Below are positions 2,200 through 53,200 of a stretch of DNA of 64,000 bases, one piece after another (positions within the stretch are counted from its first letter, which is position 1; the number at the start of each line of letters is the position of its first letter). Under the pieces are notes generated by a model. That model made no database searches. It saw only the letters and a program-made list of their open reading frames with translations, and had not been told where the DNA came from. The stretch comes from Elusimicrobiota bacterium (GTDB lineage Bacteria; Elusimicrobiota; Elusimicrobia; Elusimicrobiales; UBA9959). The stretch is from assembly GCA_026388155.1 (NCBI GenBank), contig JAPLKI010000010.1:248001-312000 (forward strand), read 5' to 3'. Both the position numbers and the translations under genes were made by a program.

Positions 2200-5163
2200 T
2201 TACGTGAACGCCGCCGCGCCTCGTCCCTCCGAGCCGTCAACGCGGATGTCAAGCGGAGAGCTGAGGCGCAGGTGTCTTACATAGGCCGTTTCATGCAACA
2301 CCGCCATGCTTTTCAGCCAGGGCCAGTTTATAAAGCCTTCCTTGCTGTAGGAGTTGATCGTAAAGTAGCCTATGCCGAGTGAAGTTACGTTGTGGAAAAA
2401 ATGCGTGCCGTAGGACGGATCCACCGAAAAGCCCTCATAGTCGGCCTCAACTATCACTTTTGAATTTGAAATGTGGTCCCACTTTACCGGTATGCCGAGC
2501 GCCGGGTCGCTTGAGCCCCAGCGGCCGGGCCCGATAAGAAGATAGTGGCGGTTTTCCAGCTTCAGGCGCGAATTCAGCTCGCCTATCTGTTCGGCTATCT
2601 CGCGCGTTTTTAAAGAGTTAAAGGTTTCCGGTTTAACGTATATAAGGTCATACACATCTCTTATATGACCGTTGCCGAGCGTCATGGCGCTTAAACATAC
2701 CAGGTTTTCTTTTTTCAGCTCCTCTAAGTGCACTTTTTTCAGGAAGCTGCGCGACACCATGGGCCGCATCTGTAAAATATTAAATTCCGCGGTCTTGTTC
2801 TTCTTGTCAAGCACGCAGGCGAATTCCATTTCAATATTGGCGCCCATGGCCTCTTTGCCGGCTTCCGAGAGAGCGCTCAGGATGCTTGAAAGCGGAATGA
2901 GCTCGTTTTTAAGAATGGGGGCGAAGGTTACGAGCCGCGCGCCGGGGCGGGAAACATCGTCGTAAATCACGTCGTTCTCGGACGAGTAGGTGGAGCCCAC
3001 GGCCTCAAGCGTTCCGTCTTCGGCCGCCAGGTCAGCGTCAAGAACGGTGAGCGCGGATTCATCGTCGTATTTTAAAGCGGCCTCTTTTCCGCCGCCAAGC
3101 GCAAGGGCTATGAACTTTTTCTGCGAGTTGCGCAGGAAATCCTTCAGGGTGGAAAACTGGTGTAAATTCCTCGGGTGCTCGGGCGAGAAGCGGAGAGAGG
3201 TGTAGCCGTCCACTATGGTCTTTCCAAGGCCGAGCGCTATGTGCACTATGGGGTTCTCCGGCTCAAGCGGCGGCACCGGATAATAGTTATAGGACTGCAT
3301 CACCCCCGCGAAGTCGGGGTAAAATCTTTTTCCGCCCGCGTACGGCAGCCCCACCACTTTTTGTATCACCACGGCCATTTTTTCTTCTTCCGCCATGTGC
3401 GGGGCAAATTTCCTGTAGGCCTGCGCTTCCCTTGAAAAAGTCGAGGCGTATACGAATTTAACCGCTTTCTCAAGTTCCGCCAGGCGCAGGGCGTCGTCGG
3501 GGGAATCGTTCGGAAGGAAGTAGGTTTTATAGACCCCCGCGAAGGGCTGGGTTTTTGAATCCTCTAAAAGCGAAGACGAACGCACGGCCAGGGGCCCTTC
3601 CAGCTTTTCCAGCACCGCGCGCAGATCGTCGCGCACATAATCCGGAAGCGGCGCGCGCTCGAAAAGCTCGGCTATACGCGCGTTAGAATAATTTTCGCTT
3701 ATGAGCGAGTCCAGGCCGTTCTGCTCAATAAAGAAATCAAAGACATCGGTGGCGATAACTATGGTGTTCGGTACCGTAACCCGCACTCCCGCGAATTTAT
3801 CCTGCAGGTCGCTCTTCGCAAGAAGGAAATCCACGAACGCCAGCCCCCGCGCCTTGCCGCCTATGGAGCCCGATCCTATTTTGGCGAACGGCGTTTCATC
3901 GTCAAAAAGCTTTCTGTCGAATTTGAGCACGGTGCCCAGCTGGGTTTTATAGATAAACTGGTGCAGGGTTTCTATCAGATACTTGCGCAGGGCCTCGCCG
4001 TCCTTGAACTCGGATATTTTCTTGGGAAGTATGTTATAGGCAATTTCAAATTCCGTGCGCGCGAACAGCCATTTCGAAAAATGGTTGCGGCTCGCGTGGT
4101 AAAGCACCGATTCCGCCGGCACCGTTTTTAAAAGCTTTGTCATAGTGTGCAGGTCGGCGGCTCTGGCGAACTCAAAGCCGTTCTTGTCGGAGAATATGAA
4201 ATCTCCGAAGCCGAAATAGCGCAGCATAAAGCCCCTGAGCTGGCGCGAAAGGTCGGGGGAGGCTTTCCTCATAAAGGTGGCGCCTAACTCGCCCGCGCGC
4301 GCCGCGAACCGGGTGTTCGAGGACTGCAAAAGAACCGGCATGTCCGGATTGTCTTCTTTTATTTTTTTTGTGAGGCGGAGCCCCGCGTCTTCCACGCAGG
4401 TTTTCCCGATGGGGTATTCTATATCGCTTATAACTCCAAGGATGTTCGTCTTATATCTGGAATAGATTTCCCAGGCCCTGTCGTAGTCCCGCGCGAATAA
4501 AATTTTCGGCCGGGCTTTAAGGCGCAGGGCTTTCTTGGCGGGGTTAAGCTCTTCGGCCATAACTATCTGGGTTTGTTTCAGCAGTTCGGAATAAATTATC
4601 GGGAGGTAGGAGGAATAAAATTTGATATTGTCCTCCACCAGCAGGACCGCCTGCACGCCCACCTCGGCGTCGCGCTCAAAATTGCGCGCGTCCTCGATTA
4701 AATTTATGATGGCTGAAAATATGCGGGTATCGCCCTGCCAGAGGAAAACCCCGTCGGCGAGCGCCTGGGCCGCCTCCGGAATGTTTTTCGCGTCGGAGAC
4801 ATTGAAAGACAAGAGCACCACCGGTATTTCCGGTTTCAGGTGCTTCAGGACGGTGAGGAAATCGGTCATGTCGGTTTCGCCCACCTGTATCATGGCTATT
4901 ACCAGGTCGTAGTGGTTTTTTTCAATTTTTTCAAGAGCCTTTTCTGCGGTCGGCACGCGGGTTATTTTAGGGGCCGTGTGCACCGAGGCGTCAAGCATCT
5001 CTCCGAAAAGCGCTTCGTTCAGGCGTTCGTCATCGGCGAGCAGGAAAGAATCGTAAAGCGAAGCCACCAAAAGGACATTTTTTATCCTCTTCGGCATCAG
5101 TTTTTCAAAACCGCCGAATTCAGCCTGATATTCCGCTATGGGCTGGCTGCGCTTGGGTTCCAT
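2200..5163 (-). CDS. PPDK-N (pyruvate/phosphate dikinase N-terminal, ATP-grasp) protein with two N-terminal receiver-like domains
   Basis: 987 aa. Residues about 27-155 and 170-310 look like two receiver domains: the second has VLLVEDN and ISDIEYP, placing an acidic residue where the phospho-acceptor Asp normally sits, while the first is degenerate. From about 430 comes a PPDK-N/PEP-synthase ATP-binding domain: GSGSIGGKARGLAF, VPNTIVIATDVF, LAVRSSSLLEDS and FAGVYKTYF. The swivelling phosphohistidine domain and the PEP-utilizing C-terminal barrel of true PpsA or PpdK are absent; instead there is a distinct C-terminal region with LIGPGRWGSSDP and YGTHFFHNV. It is therefore unlikely to be a complete PEP synthase. 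A nucleotide-dependent phosphotransfer or regulatory role is inference. No clear Shine-Dalgarno precedes the ATG. Confidence 0.8.
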   Translation of the reverse strand: MEPKRSQPIAEYQAEFGGFEKLMPKRIKNVLLVASLYDSFLLADDERLNEALFGEMLDASVHTAPKITRVPTAEKALEKIEKNHYDLVIAMIQVGETDMTDFLTVLKHLKPEIPVVLLSFNVSDAKNIPEAAQALADGVFLWQGDTRIFSAIINLIEDARNFERDAEVGVQAVLLVEDNIKFYSSYLPIIYSELLKQTQIVMAEELNPAKKALRLKARPKILFARDYDRAWEIYSRYKTNILGVISDIEYPIGKTCVEDAGLRLTKKIKEDNPDMPVLLQSSNTRFAARAGELGATFMRKASPDLSRQLRGFMLRYFGFGDFIFSDKNGFEFARAADLHTMTKLLKTVPAESVLYHASRNHFSKWLFARTEFEIAYNILPKKISEFKDGEALRKYLIETLHQFIYKTQLGTVLKFDRKLFDDETPFAKIGSGSIGGKARGLAFVDFLLAKSDLQDKFAGVRVTVPNTIVIATDVFDFFIEQNGLDSLISENYSNARIAELFERAPLPDYVRDDLRAVLEKLEGPLAVRSSSLLEDSKTQPFAGVYKTYFLPNDSPDDALRLAELEKAVKFVYASTFSREAQAYRKFAPHMAEEEKMAVVIQKVVGLPYAGGKRFYPDFAGVMQSYNYYPVPPLEPENPIVHIALGLGKTIVDGYTSLRFSPEHPRNLHQFSTLKDFLRNSQKKFIALALGGGKEAALKYDDESALTVLDADLAAEDGTLEAVGSTYSSENDVIYDDVSRPGARLVTFAPILKNELIPLSSILSALSEAGKEAMGANIEMEFACVLDKKNKTAEFNILQMRPMVSRSFLKKVHLEELKKENLVCLSAMTLGNGHIRDVYDLIYVKPETFNSLKTREIAEQIGELNSRLKLENRHYLLIGPGRWGSSDPALGIPVKWDHISNSKVIVEADYEGFSVDPSYGTHFFHNVTSLGIGYFTINSYSKEGFINWPWLKSMAVLHETAYVRHLRLSSPLDIRVDGSEGRGAAAFT

Positions 5164-5211
5164 GACTATTATTTTACTAAATTGCCGGGAGTGGGGGGGC
5201 GTCCGCTACGC

Positions 5212-5263
5212 AAAAGAAAAGCCCCGTACTTTGGCCCCTTTGGGGAAAAAGCGCGGGGCTTCG
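5212..5263 (-). terminator. intrinsic terminator of the satP-like gene
   Basis: Read on the minus strand, AAGCCCCG and CGGGGCTT flank a loop containing a second small hairpin (CCCC AAA GGGG) and are followed by TTCTTTT. It lies directly downstream of the acetate-channel gene and upstream of the PPDK-N gene. Confidence 0.7.
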
Positions 5264-5284
5264 CAGTCCGCGGTCAAACAACTA

Positions 5285-5899
5285 TCACTTTTTTTGGAAG
5301 AGCGGTCTGCCTGCGGGGAATATGACCCTGCCGGCTATGGGGTTTATAAGCATGGCGAAAGCCAGCCACAGGGCGATAAGCCCCATCAGCACCGTAAGGC
5401 AGCCTATAAGAAAGGATAGTGCCGCCGCAGGCGCCGGCCCGGCGAAATGTTTTACTACCTTTGCCAGAAAAAGCAGGTCAATATCCAGAAGGAAGGCGAA
5501 AAGCAGGCTGCTAAAAAATCCGAAGCCGTAGGTAAGCACCGCGAATATAAGCAGCAGGGTTATGTCTATGGCCAGCAGGATGCCGGCATCCGGTATAAAG
5601 CCGTTCGCTATGGAATTAAGCGTCCAGGCGTTTATCGCCCACATAAAGGAAAATGCCGTGAACAGCGTGCCGCCCAGCACATTCTTGTTAGTGAGGCTCA
5701 TAAGGCCTGCCAGCATCTGACAGCCGGTGCCGAACAGCAGCGCCCACACCGCCGCCGTTTTGAAACCTGCCGGGGTAAGCGAGCAGCCGAAAGCTATGGG
5801 TGTAAGCGCGGCGCAGCCTATGGCAAGGCCGATAAGCCCAAGCGGCGTTGGCTCGCCGAAAACCGGGGTGTTCTGTGACTGACCGGGATTTTCATTCAT
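5285..5899 (-). CDS. satP: GPR1/FUN34/YaaH (SatP) family acetate/succinate transporter
   Basis: 204 aa with six hydrophobic segments. The family signature is seen near the N-terminus as EPTPLGLIGLAIGCAAL, matching the NPxPLGL motif of SatP/AceTr channels. These move acetate and succinate with protons across the inner membrane. The start is ATG at 5899, preceded by TAGGAGAAAT, a good ribosome-binding site; the frame remains open further upstream, but that stretch is intergenic repeat. Only the family, not the substrate, can be read from sequence. Confidence 0.85.
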   Translation of the reverse strand: MNENPGQSQNTPVFGEPTPLGLIGLAIGCAALTPIAFGCSLTPAGFKTAAVWALLFGTGCQMLAGLMSLTNKNVLGGTLFTAFSFMWAINAWTLNSIANGFIPDAGILLAIDITLLLIFAVLTYGFGFFSSLLFAFLLDIDLLFLAKVVKHFAGPAPAAALSFLIGCLTVLMGLIALWLAFAMLINPIAGRVIFPAGRPLFQKK

Positions 5900-6206
5900 T
5901 ATATTTCTCCTAAATCCGAATTCTTCAGTTGAAGAATTCCCCTTCGCAGTGCTCAGGGACCGCTTCGCGGTGGATACGCCCTCGGCCATCTTATGGCCAT
6001 AGCCTTTGAAACGGCACCTACACAGGTATTGCAATGTTTCTGTTCCCTGTGTTACTCAGTGAAACCTATCTTGAACTGCAGGATTCGGGTTAAAAGCGCT
6101 TGTGCCGCGGCGCCGGATTTGGAATTATAGCATTTGACTCTAAAATAACTTGCCAGCTACTTCCCCATTTGCTAAAAAGTAAGTGGCTTATAAGTTCCAC
6201 TTATTT
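5900..6206. repeat. intergenic repeats, including one copy of the 47-bp repeat (5984-6030)
   Basis: The stretch holds the palindrome GAATTCTTCAGTTGAAGAATTC at about 5919-5940 (22 bases, centred on CAGTTG), a 47-bp repeat copy at 5984-6030 ending in GGCACCTACACAGGTATT, and near 6074-6092 CTGCAGGATTCGGGTT, which resembles the end hairpin of the 230-bp element at 15271 and 39703 and may be a decayed remnant. Confidence 0.6.
6149..6181 (+). promoter_or_regulatory. candidate promoter, TTGCCA-17-TAAAAA
   Basis: TTGCCA, 17 bases, then TAAAAA just upstream of the transglutaminase-like gene. Nearly the same block, including CCATTTGCTAAAAAGTAA, recurs at 6914-6946 upstream of the PfkB-family gene, so the two genes may share a promoter type or a short duplicated sequence. 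Confidence 0.4.
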
Positions 6207-15534: not shown

Positions 15535-16068
15535 ATGGAAAAAATGCTTATAAAATATAAACAATTTATTAGGGGACAGTCCCCAAAAAGGTGCCAGGCA
15601 CCTTTTTATGAGTTGTGGTTTACGGTTCTTATTTTGGTTTTTCCCGCTGTTGCAAAGTCCGGCAGTACTGAAACCGTCAGCGCCCCGGAGCAGTACCAGC
15701 AGCAACAGCAGCGGCCCATCATACTTTACGGCAATACCGCAGTGATACAGAAATCGAATGATAATAATTCTGTCGGACTCCGGCAGGAGAATCCGGTGAA
15801 ATTAAAAAAGGCCGCGGGGCCGGAGTCTAAGAAAAAGAAAAAAAACCGTCTGCGCGGCAAACAGGGAGGGAAGCAGGAAATGGCCGTGCTGGCAAAGAAA
15901 AAACTGGTGCCGGTGCATTTTAAAGAGGCAGTGTCGCATAAGTCGCCATATACCTGTAAATGGGCGCTGGGGAAAGTTTTTGAAATTATCGCCGGTTCCA
16001 GGACTATGCGGAGCCCCGAACCGCAAAAACCCCTGAAAATCCAGAACAACGATAAACCGAAGGATTAA
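15535..16068 (+). CDS. unrecognised Lys-rich, possibly exported protein with repeat at its start
   Basis: 177 aa as read from ATG 15535. The first codons run through two palindromes (GGGGACAGTCCCC and AAAAAGGTGCC/GGCACCTTTTT, 15571-15606) that look like an inserted intergenic repeat, so the true start may be a later TTG within ELWFTVLILVF. That hydrophobic segment could be a signal peptide ending AVAKSG. A polar Gln-rich linker and a strongly basic middle (ESKKKKKNRLRGKQGGK) follow. I recognise no family. The coding status itself is moderately supported. Confidence 0.45.
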   Translation: MEKMLIKYKQFIRGQSPKRCQAPFYELWFTVLILVFPAVAKSGSTETVSAPEQYQQQQQRPIILYGNTAVIQKSNDNNSVGLRQENPVKLKKAAGPESKKKKKNRLRGKQGGKQEMAVLAKKKLVPVHFKEAVSHKSPYTCKWALGKVFEIIAGSRTMRSPEPQKPLKIQNNDKPKD

Positions 16069-16099
16069 ATTTTTTTTAAATTAATACCGCGAGATGCCA

Positions 16100-16345
16100 A
16101 GTCGGGGTCCTGCCGGTGGAGATTGTCCTCGGGGGCCGGGGGGGAGAGGGCCGGGCATGGGGTTGCCCTTCCGCCACGTAGGAACCCCTCCCGTGGTTTC
16201 CCCCCGAAGCGGGGCCCCCCATCCGCTATGTGGCTCCAGAGCAACCCCATGCCCGGCCCTTGATGAAGTTCTTTAATAAAAATATCCCCGCCCCGTTGAT
16301 ACATCTTCACCCGTCCCCAAGGTCGCAGCCAGCTTATAAAAATTT
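16100..16345. repeat. GC-rich covarying hairpin element, copy 1
   Basis: GGGCCGGGCATGGGGTTGC at 16148-16166 is the exact reverse complement of 16241-16259. Between them lies the conserved core (GGAACCCCTCCCGTGG...CGGGGCCCCCCATCCGCT). A conserved tail with AAGGTCGCAGCCAG and TTATAAAAA ends the element just before the promoter of the next gene. Five copies are present in the window. Confidence 0.8.
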
Positions 16346-18420: not shown

Positions 18421-18645
18421 CACCACCGGGGAGCGGGTCGGGCATGGGGTTGCCCATTCCGCCACGGTGGGGAACCCTCCCGTGGTTCCCCTCCACCCTA
18501 CCGGGTGGAGCCTCCCTTCCGCTATGTGGCTCCAGAGCAACTCCATGCCCGGCCCTTAGTGGTATCTCTTTAATATAAATATCCCCGCCCCGTTGATACA
18601 TCCTAACCCGCCCCAAAGGTCGCAGCCAACTTATAAAAACTTACG
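18421..18645. repeat. GC-rich covarying hairpin element, copy 2
   Basis: The arm at 18435-18453 (GGGTCGGGCATGGGGTTGC) pairs with 18537-18555, with G-U and one mismatch. The core is as in copy 1, though its inner loop differs (TCCACCCTACCGGGTGGA). It ends with GGTCGCAGCCAACTTATAAA. It fills most of the 386-base gap between the C39-like gene and the HNH gene. Confidence 0.8.
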
Positions 18646-18729
18646 TCCATCCGGTCATCTTTACCAATAAAAATATTAAAAATTACACATTTGTGGCATA
18701 ATATCCCTATATCCGGATTAGGAGGTATA

Positions 18730-18813
18730 ATTAGTTATTTTGTTGTCAATACTCCGCTTTGTAAGGTAAAAAATCTTGGTAACGGAGCACATGTAAAACA
18801 ATCAAATGAATAA
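18730..18813 (+). other. 27-codon open frame with strong Shine-Dalgarno but no standard start
   Basis: TAGGAGG at 18718-18724 is followed by an open frame beginning ATT at 18730 and ending TAA at 18811, overlapping the HNH start codon by the ATGA-type arrangement. It reads NTPLCKVKNLGNGAHVKQSN. It may be a remnant of a larger upstream gene or a translational-coupling leader. ATT starts are rare, so coding is doubtful. Confidence 0.2.
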
Positions 18814-19126
18814 ATGGGGTATCCCAGATTGGCTTGAGTATGAGGTTCGGCAACGTGACAAGCTGTGTGTCTATTGCAGAACTCCAATGCTTGAATTTCC
18901 CCCTGCAGATGGTTCACGCAAATCTGTCGCGACATGGGAGCATATTGTTAACGACGCTAGAATTATCACACGAGAAAATATTGCAAGATGCTGTGCTTCC
19001 TGCAATTCAAGTAAAGGAACAAAAAAGCTTTCTTTTTGGATTGAGTCAAACTACTGTAAACGACATGGAATTCATCGGGAGACGGTTGCGGATGTCATTA
19101 AGGAAGCGCTAAAACGTGATGCCTAG
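18806..19126 (+). CDS. small HNH endonuclease
   Basis: 106 aa. CVYC and CCASCNSSKG give two CxxC-type zinc knuckles around the HNH core WEHIVND, and ENIARCC carries the Asn. This is a stand-alone HNH domain of the McrA/5-methylcytosine-restriction superfamily. The base composition is noticeably more AT-rich than the neighbours, and the gene is bracketed by two inverted GC-rich hairpin elements (copies 2 and 3), which suggests transfer or recombination. It could act in defence, in mobility, or as a remnant. Confidence 0.8.
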   Translation: MNKWGIPDWLEYEVRQRDKLCVYCRTPMLEFPPADGSRKSVATWEHIVNDARIITRENIARCCASCNSSKGTKKLSFWIESNYCKRHGIHRETVADVIKEALKRDA

Positions 19127-19269
19127 GGTGGGTGGATTTAGCGTTACCAACGATTTGGGTGGGGAACCTTAATTTAAAGATATCAGGATAAAGAACAGCG
19201 AAGGGGTGACGGTTGGATTTGTTTGTGAGGGTTTTCATTAGGCTTCTTACCGCATATTATAATAATTTT

Positions 19270-19440
19270 CTTTAAGGGCTAGGCATGGGGTTGCTCTGGA
19301 GCCACATAGCGGATGGGGGGCCCCGTTTCGGGGGGAAACCACGGGAGGGTTTCCTACGTGGCGGAATGGGCAACCCCATGACTGGCCCGCTCTTCCTCCC
19401 CGACCCCCGCAAATAAATCCCGGCGGCAGGACCCCGCTCT
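19270..19440. repeat. GC-rich covarying hairpin element, copy 3, inverted
   Basis: GGGCTAGGCATGGGGTTGC at 19276-19294 pairs with 19370-19388, and the core appears as the reverse complement of copies 1 and 2. The flank CGGCGGCAGGACCCCG matches, in reverse, the GGGGTCCTGCCGG start of copies 1 and 4. Confidence 0.8.
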
Positions 19441-51324: not shown

Positions 51325-51535
51325 CAAAGTCGTGGCGACCAGCGGGTTTGGCATCCCGCTCCCGCAGGAACCCCTCCCGTGGTTTCCCCCCGAAACGGGG
51401 CCCCCCATCCGCTAAGGGAGCGGGATGCCAAACCCGCCGGTTCCACTCCCAAAATTTTCCTTCCTTACTTTATATAAATAACCCCACCCTGATGGTGAAT
51501 CCTATCCCACCCCCAAGGTCGCAGCCAAGCCTATA
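51325..51535. repeat. GC-rich covarying hairpin element, copy 5
   Basis: Outer stem GCGGGTTTGGCATCCCGCTC pairs with 51416-51437; the core GGAACCCCTCCCGTGGTTTC...CGGGGCCCCCCATCCGCT is nearly identical to copy 1, although the stem is not. It ends with CCCCCAAGGTCGCAGCCAAG. Confidence 0.8.
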
Positions 51536-51580
51536 AAAAACTCAGGCTACTTTTATTAAAAAAGTAGCCTGAGTTCTTTC
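51536..51580 (-). terminator. intrinsic terminator of the PD-(D/E)XK-like gene
   Basis: ACTCAGGCTACTTTT pairs with AAAAGTAGCCTGAGT, loop ATTAA; T runs on both sides, so it may be bidirectional. Confidence 0.85.
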
Positions 51581-51591
51581 TGCACCCGAAA

Positions 51592-52818
51592 TTATATTTT
51601 ATGTTTGTGAAGATATGAAACAACAGGTTTGTAGGTATTATCGATTACATCGAGCACAAATTTTTTAAGTCCCTCGGATTCCACATTTGTAATGTCACTA
51701 TCAGCAATCTTATACTCAGGACCTGCCCAGATACACCTCCAACAAGGCCATTGCTTCATGGTGCCTTCGAGTTTCGGCAATTTTGATTTGACAGCCTTTC
51801 GCATATTTTCCGCGTATTCGACATATTTAGGCGACTGACCAGAACCATCCTTTTTACCACACCATGCCATTAGTCTAATAGTAAAAGTGGCTGAGTTATC
51901 ATCCGAATGTAACTGGTAATAAACCTCAAAATCATCTTGATACAAGCCTTGAAGTGAAATGTTGAATTCTCGGGGATATGGTGTTGCCCTAGGATGATGC
52001 CATGCAATATATGCGCTTGGATATTCAGTCTTTAATTCTCGCACCAAATACTCGTAGATTAAATTTCTCAAATTTGGTAAAAAAATATTTTTCCTAATCA
52101 GTTCTAAAGCATTTTGTCTTCTCGGACTACTGGAAATCTTTGTTTTTATAGAACTTTTCACAGTCCCTCCGTTTGTGCACTCTAAAATATGCTTTTCAAT
52201 ATAAATCGGAAACGCTTTGAGTAACATTTTCGCATCTGCGTTCTGGCACCTTGCTTGAGAGTGTAACGCAACGGGGAGTAATTCTTTATAAGATAGTGCA
52301 CGAACCAGACAGTTAGATGCTAATTTATCGCTTGCGGTTTTTGGAGCTTTTCCCAATGGATTAAGGAAGACCAATAATTTGGGTGATTTCGGAAAAGAAT
52401 GTATGAGAGCTTTCTGATAGTCGGATAATTGAGCATCTCTTTCTTTTGCAAAAACTTTATTTTCTATTCCTAAAGCCAATATTGTTTTGCTCGCCCCCTT
52501 GCTCTGAGAATCTTTAACTGTAACTAATATATCAAGGAATTTATTCTCATGTGTTTTCCAAGGAGAAGAAGTGTTGGACTCAAGTGAGTCACAAGATTTA
52601 ACATCCTTCTTGAAAATCAAAAGAAATTGTTTAAGAAAATAATCCCCTAAACCATGTGACTCACCGCTATTTAAAAAATACGCAATAATTCTTGAAAAAG
52701 CATTCTCATTAATAAGATCTTGAAAAATATCCAATACTGAGTTGTTGTCAGCATATTTCTCAAATTGGTGAAAGAAATTGTCATCTAGCAGCTTTAAGAT
52801 AGTAATCATGTCTCGCAT
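51592..52818 (-). CDS. PD-(D/E)XK nuclease superfamily protein, AT-rich, probably acquired
   Basis: 408 aa. NENAFSRIIAYFLN, KFLDILVTV and ALGIENKVFAKERDAQLSDYQ form an (E)...D...E-x-K core with the QxxxY extension, as in the PDDEXK_4-type nucleases. The remaining region contains AYIAWHHPRATPYP and a C-terminal WPCWRCIWAG stretch. It is markedly more AT-rich than its neighbours, flanked by a transposase stub and palindromes. It is probably a restriction or defence-type nuclease, but no partner gene (methylase, helicase) is adjacent. Confidence 0.68.
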   Translation of the reverse strand: MRDMITILKLLDDNFFHQFEKYADNNSVLDIFQDLINENAFSRIIAYFLNSGESHGLGDYFLKQFLLIFKKDVKSCDSLESNTSSPWKTHENKFLDILVTVKDSQSKGASKTILALGIENKVFAKERDAQLSDYQKALIHSFPKSPKLLVFLNPLGKAPKTASDKLASNCLVRALSYKELLPVALHSQARCQNADAKMLLKAFPIYIEKHILECTNGGTVKSSIKTKISSSPRRQNALELIRKNIFLPNLRNLIYEYLVRELKTEYPSAYIAWHHPRATPYPREFNISLQGLYQDDFEVYYQLHSDDNSATFTIRLMAWCGKKDGSGQSPKYVEYAENMRKAVKSKLPKLEGTMKQWPCWRCIWAGPEYKIADSDITNVESEGLKKFVLDVIDNTYKPVVSYLHKHKI

Positions 52819-53000
52819 ATTTTAATTATTTATTGGCTGACGCCCCTAATTACTTTGGATATTATACCCCAAATCAGGGCCATGGCTTAAATTTTTACAA
52901 GCTTGGTTGCGATCTTGTGGGCGGGTAATTCGGCTGTATCATAAAAGGGCGGGGTTGTTATAATATTTTAAAGTTTTTCACGGTTTATAATAAATATCAC

Positions 53001-53200
53001 AAAGGAGCCAGCAGGTTCCCTGGGCGCTCCATTCGAGGGTTTTAAGTCCGTGGTCTGGAGCGTATCGCTATCATTAGCGACGGCGGTGAATGTCTGAGCC
53101 TCGCACTGTGTGCGAGGCGAGTTCGCACGCCGGCGGAAGACCACGGGCTTCTTCCCCAAAACCCGGTCTCGGAGCGCCCAGGGAACCTGCTGGCTCCTTT
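53001..53200. repeat. 200-bp palindrome with 30-bp perfect arms and internal hairpins
   Basis: Bases 53001-53030 are the exact reverse complement of 53171-53200. Inside, GGGTTTT/AAAACCC (53037-53043, 53157-53163), CCGTGGTCT/AGACCACGG (53048-53056, 53138-53146), CGCTA-TCAT-TAGCG (53066-53079) and GCCTCGCAC-TGT-GTGCGAGGC (53098-53118) form a branched fold. TATAAT-like sequence lies at 52960 upstream. It could be a structured RNA, a mobile palindrome or a large terminator after tolB; no ORF is credible. Confidence 0.7.

Follow-up and report, generated by a model that had tools for sequence, protein, structure and literature searches.

Palindromic folded ends of probable non-autonomous mobile defence cassettes in Elusimicrobiota

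A nuclease cassette bounded by palindromes

The DNA analysed here, referred to below as the window, is a 64,000-nucleotide stretch (C10:248001-312000) of a 3.36-Mb Elusimicrobiota MAG. On the 3' side of tolB and adjoining an AT-rich acquired gene, as the original prediction had placed it, lies a palindrome at 53001-53200. Its 30-nt outer arms proved to be exact reverse complements, and the two ordered inner hairpins claimed for it, CGCTATCATTAGCG and GCCTCGCACTGTGTGCGAGGC, were both recovered inside a single multi-branched predicted structure. The minimum free energy of this segment is -143.6 kcal/mol, against a mean of -75.4 for shuffled sequences (z -13.6), and none of 200 shuffles equalled it; the palindrome is thus far outside chance expectation. 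Conserved unpaired segments are also present within the fold.

The palindrome is the right end of a larger unit spanning about 51332-53200. The reading of a structured, mobile element made from the letters stood in part: it had missed a G-rich motif upstream of the palindrome, an inverted partner end at 51332-51512 and the nuclease cassette that lies between the two ends. The features of this unit, each with the evidence for it, are:

51332..51446, minus strand: type 3-like palindrome, left cassette end (arms 51342-51437, sequence)
51483..51512 (C10:299482-299512), minus strand: inverted G-rich end motif of the opposite cassette end (pattern search)
51592..52818, minus strand: cargo, gene for a 408-aa PD-(D/E)XK nuclease (Pfam PDDEXK_4, 3.7e-18)
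52919..52954, plus strand: G-rich end motif GGGCGGGTAATTCGGCTGTATCATAAAAGGGCGGGG (pattern search)
52955..53000, plus strand: AT-rich leader from the G-rich motif to the palindrome
53001..53200, plus strand: type-1 structured palindrome, right cassette end (arms, fold z, covariance model R1, at least 23 genome copies)
53001..53030, plus strand: 5' outer arm, exact reverse complement of 53171-53200
53066..53079, plus strand: inner hairpin 1, helix 4, with co-varying stem pairs (fold, covariation)
53098..53118, plus strand: apical hairpin 2, atop a co-varying internal loop, TGAG/CGAG or CAAG/CGCG (fold, covariation)
53171..53200, plus strand: 3' outer arm, exact reverse complement of 53001-53030

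PADLOC assigns the cargo nuclease to its candidate defence family PDC-S26 (8.1e-25). A second cassette, overall at about 18434-19440 of the window, has the same kind of layout:

18434..18555, minus strand: left palindrome, type 3 (approximate limits)
18584..18613, minus strand: inverted G-rich motif (pattern search)
18806..19126, plus strand: cargo, 106-aa HNH-like ORF with a weak PtuB match (1.8e-5)
19126..19164, plus strand: G-rich motif (pattern search)
19200..19440, plus strand: right palindrome, types 2 and 3 nested (approximate limits)

An ORF homologous to this HNH-like cargo sits in a cassette of a relative (G002). The window further holds a third possible end, a type 3 palindrome at 16061-16330 on the minus strand with a degenerate G-rich motif, for which no partner end was identified.

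Copies of the palindrome and conservation of its pairing

BLAST searches with the type-1 palindrome returned 27 matches at no fewer than 23 places in its own genome, at 69-88% identity, and further copies in relatives of the same family. The lack of a second occurrence in any genome, named beforehand as a refutation, is contradicted by these copies, and the dispersal supports the suggestion that the palindrome is mobile DNA beside an acquired region. At the DNA level the element was found in 9 of the 41 genomes searched, its own included. The covariance model R1, which scores the 53001-53200 copy at 162.3 bits, matches it in 13 of 199 genomes of the phylum, the matches outside the family being weak. 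Four contigs (C2, C12, C13 and C18) terminate in copies of the element, as is expected of a repeat that breaks assembly. All the genomes compared are MAGs, and several of their contigs are broken at these repeats, so some of the cassette arrangements described below could be assembly joins.

Rfam searches at E<=1-5 gave no meaningful match, whether for the window copy, for 17 further end loci or for 8 loci of relatives. No match to a 19-mer of the element was found in viral contigs, and none to the element in phage and plasmid records. Some 19-mer matches outside the Elusimicrobia had no alignable element around them and are probably due to chance. A shorter core, GAGGACTGTYTGAG-hairpin-CGAGTTCCGCAGC, is dispersed in other Elusimicrobiota families, and the inner-core pattern has one match, among the viral contigs searched, in a proteobacterial prophage contig (the set of loci is L225, L224, L227, L228, L230, L207); given these occurrences, a more widespread superfamily of repeats may include the inner fold. 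At a few positions within type-1 copies (L019, L021, L022, L024, L029) a repeat of about 47 bp, GGCCGTCTGA...GATACGGCACCTACGCAAGTATTGG, is nested, apparently a second small mobile repeat.

The copies vary in sequence, in the arms as elsewhere, yet stay paired. Across 30 aligned copies, 93.7% of cells are standard pairs and 45 of the 60 pairs show two-sided changes, giving a covariation score of 0.386 against 0.152 in shuffles; not one of 500 shuffles attains any of the covariation measures, and the signal is lost when the partners are slid. Two-sided change occurs in every helix except one. Pairing is thus kept in the manner of structured nucleic acids, as had been proposed. The further proposal of recent outer arms around an old RNA interior did not survive the comparison: the arms co-vary between copies just as the interior does, so that the whole 200 nt constitutes one conserved fold. 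Template-switch correction of quasi-palindromes could account in part for the exactness of the arms; however, since the short inner helices also show two-sided change, correction acting simply on long arms does not explain the pattern in full.

Mismatches on the palindrome's plus strand comprise 71 G-U against 28 A-C (p 2e-5), an excess that suggests folding of this strand. The internal loop below the apical hairpin alternates in nearly all aligned copies, in a coupled manner, between TGAG/CGAG and CAAG/CGCG, and the form TGAG/CGAG is suggestive of a candidate kink-turn-like motif.

End modules, their cargo and the sites they occupy

Upstream of the palindrome copies, at a distance of about 50 bp, a G-rich double motif of the form GGGYGGG-N(14-26)-GGGYGGGG is conserved. 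The pattern occurs 30 times in the genome and its reversed control 5 times, and 7 of the 8 matches to a stricter version adjoin type-1 copies. Read from inside to outside, an end module consists of the G-rich double motif, an AT-rich leader with a TATAAT-like stretch after the G motif in several copies, and a structured palindrome of about 100-220 nt. Several fold types occur behind the same G-rich motif, 53001-53200 being of type 1. In the paired ends that were read, the G-rich motif faces the cargo and the fold lies outside, inverted at both ends. For many ends there is no cargo, or the motif search recognised no partner. Many such cassettes, cargo-bearing or cargo-free, occur in Elusimicrobiota genomes, for the most part at the 3' ends of genes, with flanking genes in 21 convergent, 22 tandem and 2 divergent arrangements.

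Inward-facing end pairs in relatives enclose R-M, nuclease or TA genes, or nothing. The closed cassettes carry a type II R-M pair (L113), a ResIII/helicase-type restriction enzyme with an FRG protein (L115), a 351-aa protein with a weak SfsA/XisH match (L118), DUF2130 (L092), an HNH-like ORF (L180), an HsdR_N nuclease (L191), two nucleotidyltransferases (L233), only a lipoprotein-like gene (L195), or an uncharacterised membrane protein (L243). R-M cargo gives Pfam matches to REase_II (7e-95) and N6_N4_Mtase, and in G229 NTP_transf/DUF6036 genes lie between two inverted type-1 ends. Beside single ends we found N6/N4 methyltransferase, Gp49/HI1420-type TA, Mrr, AbiEii, BrnT/CopG-type TA and ORF6N genes. 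One array (L179, positions 3029-6150, in G001) repeats a unit of an ORF6N gene plus an end module four times in tandem; its ORF6N-domain proteins differ in their N-terminal parts and are nearly identical in their C-terminal parts, which suggests domain shuffling. On the outside the neighbours are, by inspection, mostly housekeeping genes, such as those for groEL, an MFS transporter and thymidylate kinase. At L229 (3854-3932, minus strand) there is a c-di-GMP-I-GGC riboswitch-like match that scores 51.6 bits and so falls short of the gathering score, 59.

The gap between the DUF772 gene and tolB measures 1,995 bp in the window versus 78 bp in G010, with the same flanking genes. Congeners carry different cassettes at two sites. 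The C25 site is occupied by an R-M cassette in G000, by a cargo-free 549 bp in G001, and by AbiEii with other genes in G002; here the homology of the flanks ends at the palindrome edges. At the 3' end of groEL there are cargo-free ends in G000 and G002, DUF2130 in G001, and Gp49/HTH_3 (HigBA-like) genes in G252. Inspection of the tolB and C25 sites by eye revealed no clear target-site duplication.

Mobility of the cassettes and the enzyme that may move them

These observations are probably best explained by non-autonomous mobile defence cassettes with folded ends that are moved by an enzyme acting in trans. None of the cassettes read was found to contain a transposase or recombinase, and no parent element, that is an IS with these ends, turned up among the loci read. 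An enzyme supplied in trans would recognise the G-rich motif, the fold or both, and would move everything between two ends as one unit. Its substrate would probably be the fold, extruded on one strand as single-stranded DNA, and the conservation of pairing rather than sequence would follow from this; homologous recombination among the dispersed copies could add to the shuffling of cassettes. A bolder version, which we put forward only tentatively and consider somewhat doubtful, is an undescribed Elusimicrobiota recombination system in which defence and TA cassettes are delimited by interchangeable large folds behind one G-rich motif, with a dedicated enzyme recognising the folds as single-stranded DNA or RNA.

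Alternatively, each palindrome and its leader might form a small mobile repeat of MITE or REPIN type, inserting on its own next to gene ends; cargo would become bracketed through hot spots at these sites or at copies already present, and through homologous recombination that exchanges the contents between copies. That account is possible, if rather unlikely: it would accommodate the frequency of cargo-free, back-to-back ends and of apparently unpaired ones, the free combination of fold types at the ends (with type 3 nested in type 2) and the other short repeats nested inside copies, but it sits poorly with the constant inverted orientation of motif and fold about the cargo and with flank conservation that stops at the palindrome edges at C25. 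Lower still we would place transcription from a promoter in the G-rich/AT-rich leader, yielding a non-coding RNA or a structure at an RNA 3' end, such as a regulatory or antitoxin-like RNA belonging to the cargo. The strong covariation, the one-strand G-U bias, the coupled loop variants and the TATAAT-like stretch speak for such an RNA. However, a simple promoter scan gives no more than shuffles do, Rfam holds no match, and the folds at the two cassette ends point outward from the cargo and differ in type in several cassettes.

Movement of a REPIN-like element by a RAYT, a Y1 HUH transposase, appears more doubtful again, and the case for a RAYT as the mobilising enzyme is weak. Four Y1_Tnp genes are present in the MAG itself, other element-carrying genomes have them too, and the lack of a visible target duplication would agree with such an enzyme; in G099, moreover, a distant relative of the element core lies just downstream of a Y1-like ORF. 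Against this, that ORF falls under the Pfam cut-off, Y1_Tnp genes occur as well in family members without the element, and the Y1 genes examined in the family are mostly flanked by their own, different inverted repeats of 14-24 bp, with a single weak element match (21.9 bits) at the 14 Y1_Tnp loci. Among these RAYT-like genes, L050, L259, L261, L263, L264, L266 and L267 have flanking inverted repeats of 18-24 bp. One Y1_Tnp-flanking inverted repeat, AAAAGGTAGCGTCTACCTTTTTGA, recurs near the inner borders of cassettes. Lastly, an elaborate bidirectional transcription terminator or insulator would suit the position between gene 3' ends and is nonetheless highly improbable: the fold far exceeds the size required and includes conserved segments that do not pair, a terminator belonging to groEL already stands immediately ahead of the element, and no terminator-like site is called at 53001-53200. 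That the structure is more than a terminator requires, as originally argued, is borne out by its recurrence and by the covariation among copies.

The probable mobile cassettes resemble several known systems in part. In mobile insertion cassettes (MICs) passenger genes lie between IS ends; the present cassettes likewise have passenger genes between matching ends and lack a transposase, but no parent IS was found for them, and their ends are folded and of several fold types. In integrons it is the fold of attC rather than its sequence that is conserved, and chromosomal integron cassettes are enriched in TA genes. The Elusimicrobiota cassettes too are bounded by sites conserved in fold and not in sequence; unlike attC, these sites are inverted at both ends instead of occurring once per cassette in direct arrays, the one exception being the ORF6N-unit array. 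TIMEs have 38-bp Tn3 inverted repeats at their ends and make 5-bp target duplications, and in a TIME-COMP two copies of the small non-coding element surround unrelated genes with no transposase inside and are mobilised in trans (PMC4133298). Here also a pair of non-coding elements flanks a passenger region devoid of a transposase (window 51332-53200 and several closed cassettes in relatives). In contrast to TIME-COMPs, each end measures about 300 bp and combines a G-rich double motif with a conserved 200-nt fold, there are no Tn3-type 38-bp termini and, by eye at the tolB and C25 sites, no 5-bp duplication, and the cargo consists largely of defence and TA genes. REPINs are dispersed extragenic palindromic doublets with conserved pairing, for which a Y1 transposase acting in trans has been proposed (PMC3116915). 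The present element shares the dispersal, the conserved pairing and the presence of a Y1 transposase in the genome; it differs in the size of its unit, about 200 nt with inner branches and 60 predicted pairs where REPs measure about 20-60 bp, and it was not found next to the RAYT genes that these genomes carry, which are accompanied by other repeats. Literature searches for the core motif as text and for palindromic mobile repeats of Elusimicrobia yielded nothing relevant in the searchable part, which excludes most subscription journals.

How small defence systems move between bacteria without an accompanying transposase is a long-standing question. If the reading as mobile cassettes is right, the folded ends would be a visible address label of mobile defence cassettes in a little-studied phylum, and searches with the end motif could lead to more defence genes and to the enzyme responsible for their movement. 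Because its pairs co-vary so strongly, the element is also well suited to asking whether selection acts on transposon ends in their folded, single-stranded form. Should a dedicated enzyme indeed read these folds, the phylum would have its own mechanism for shuffling defence genes.
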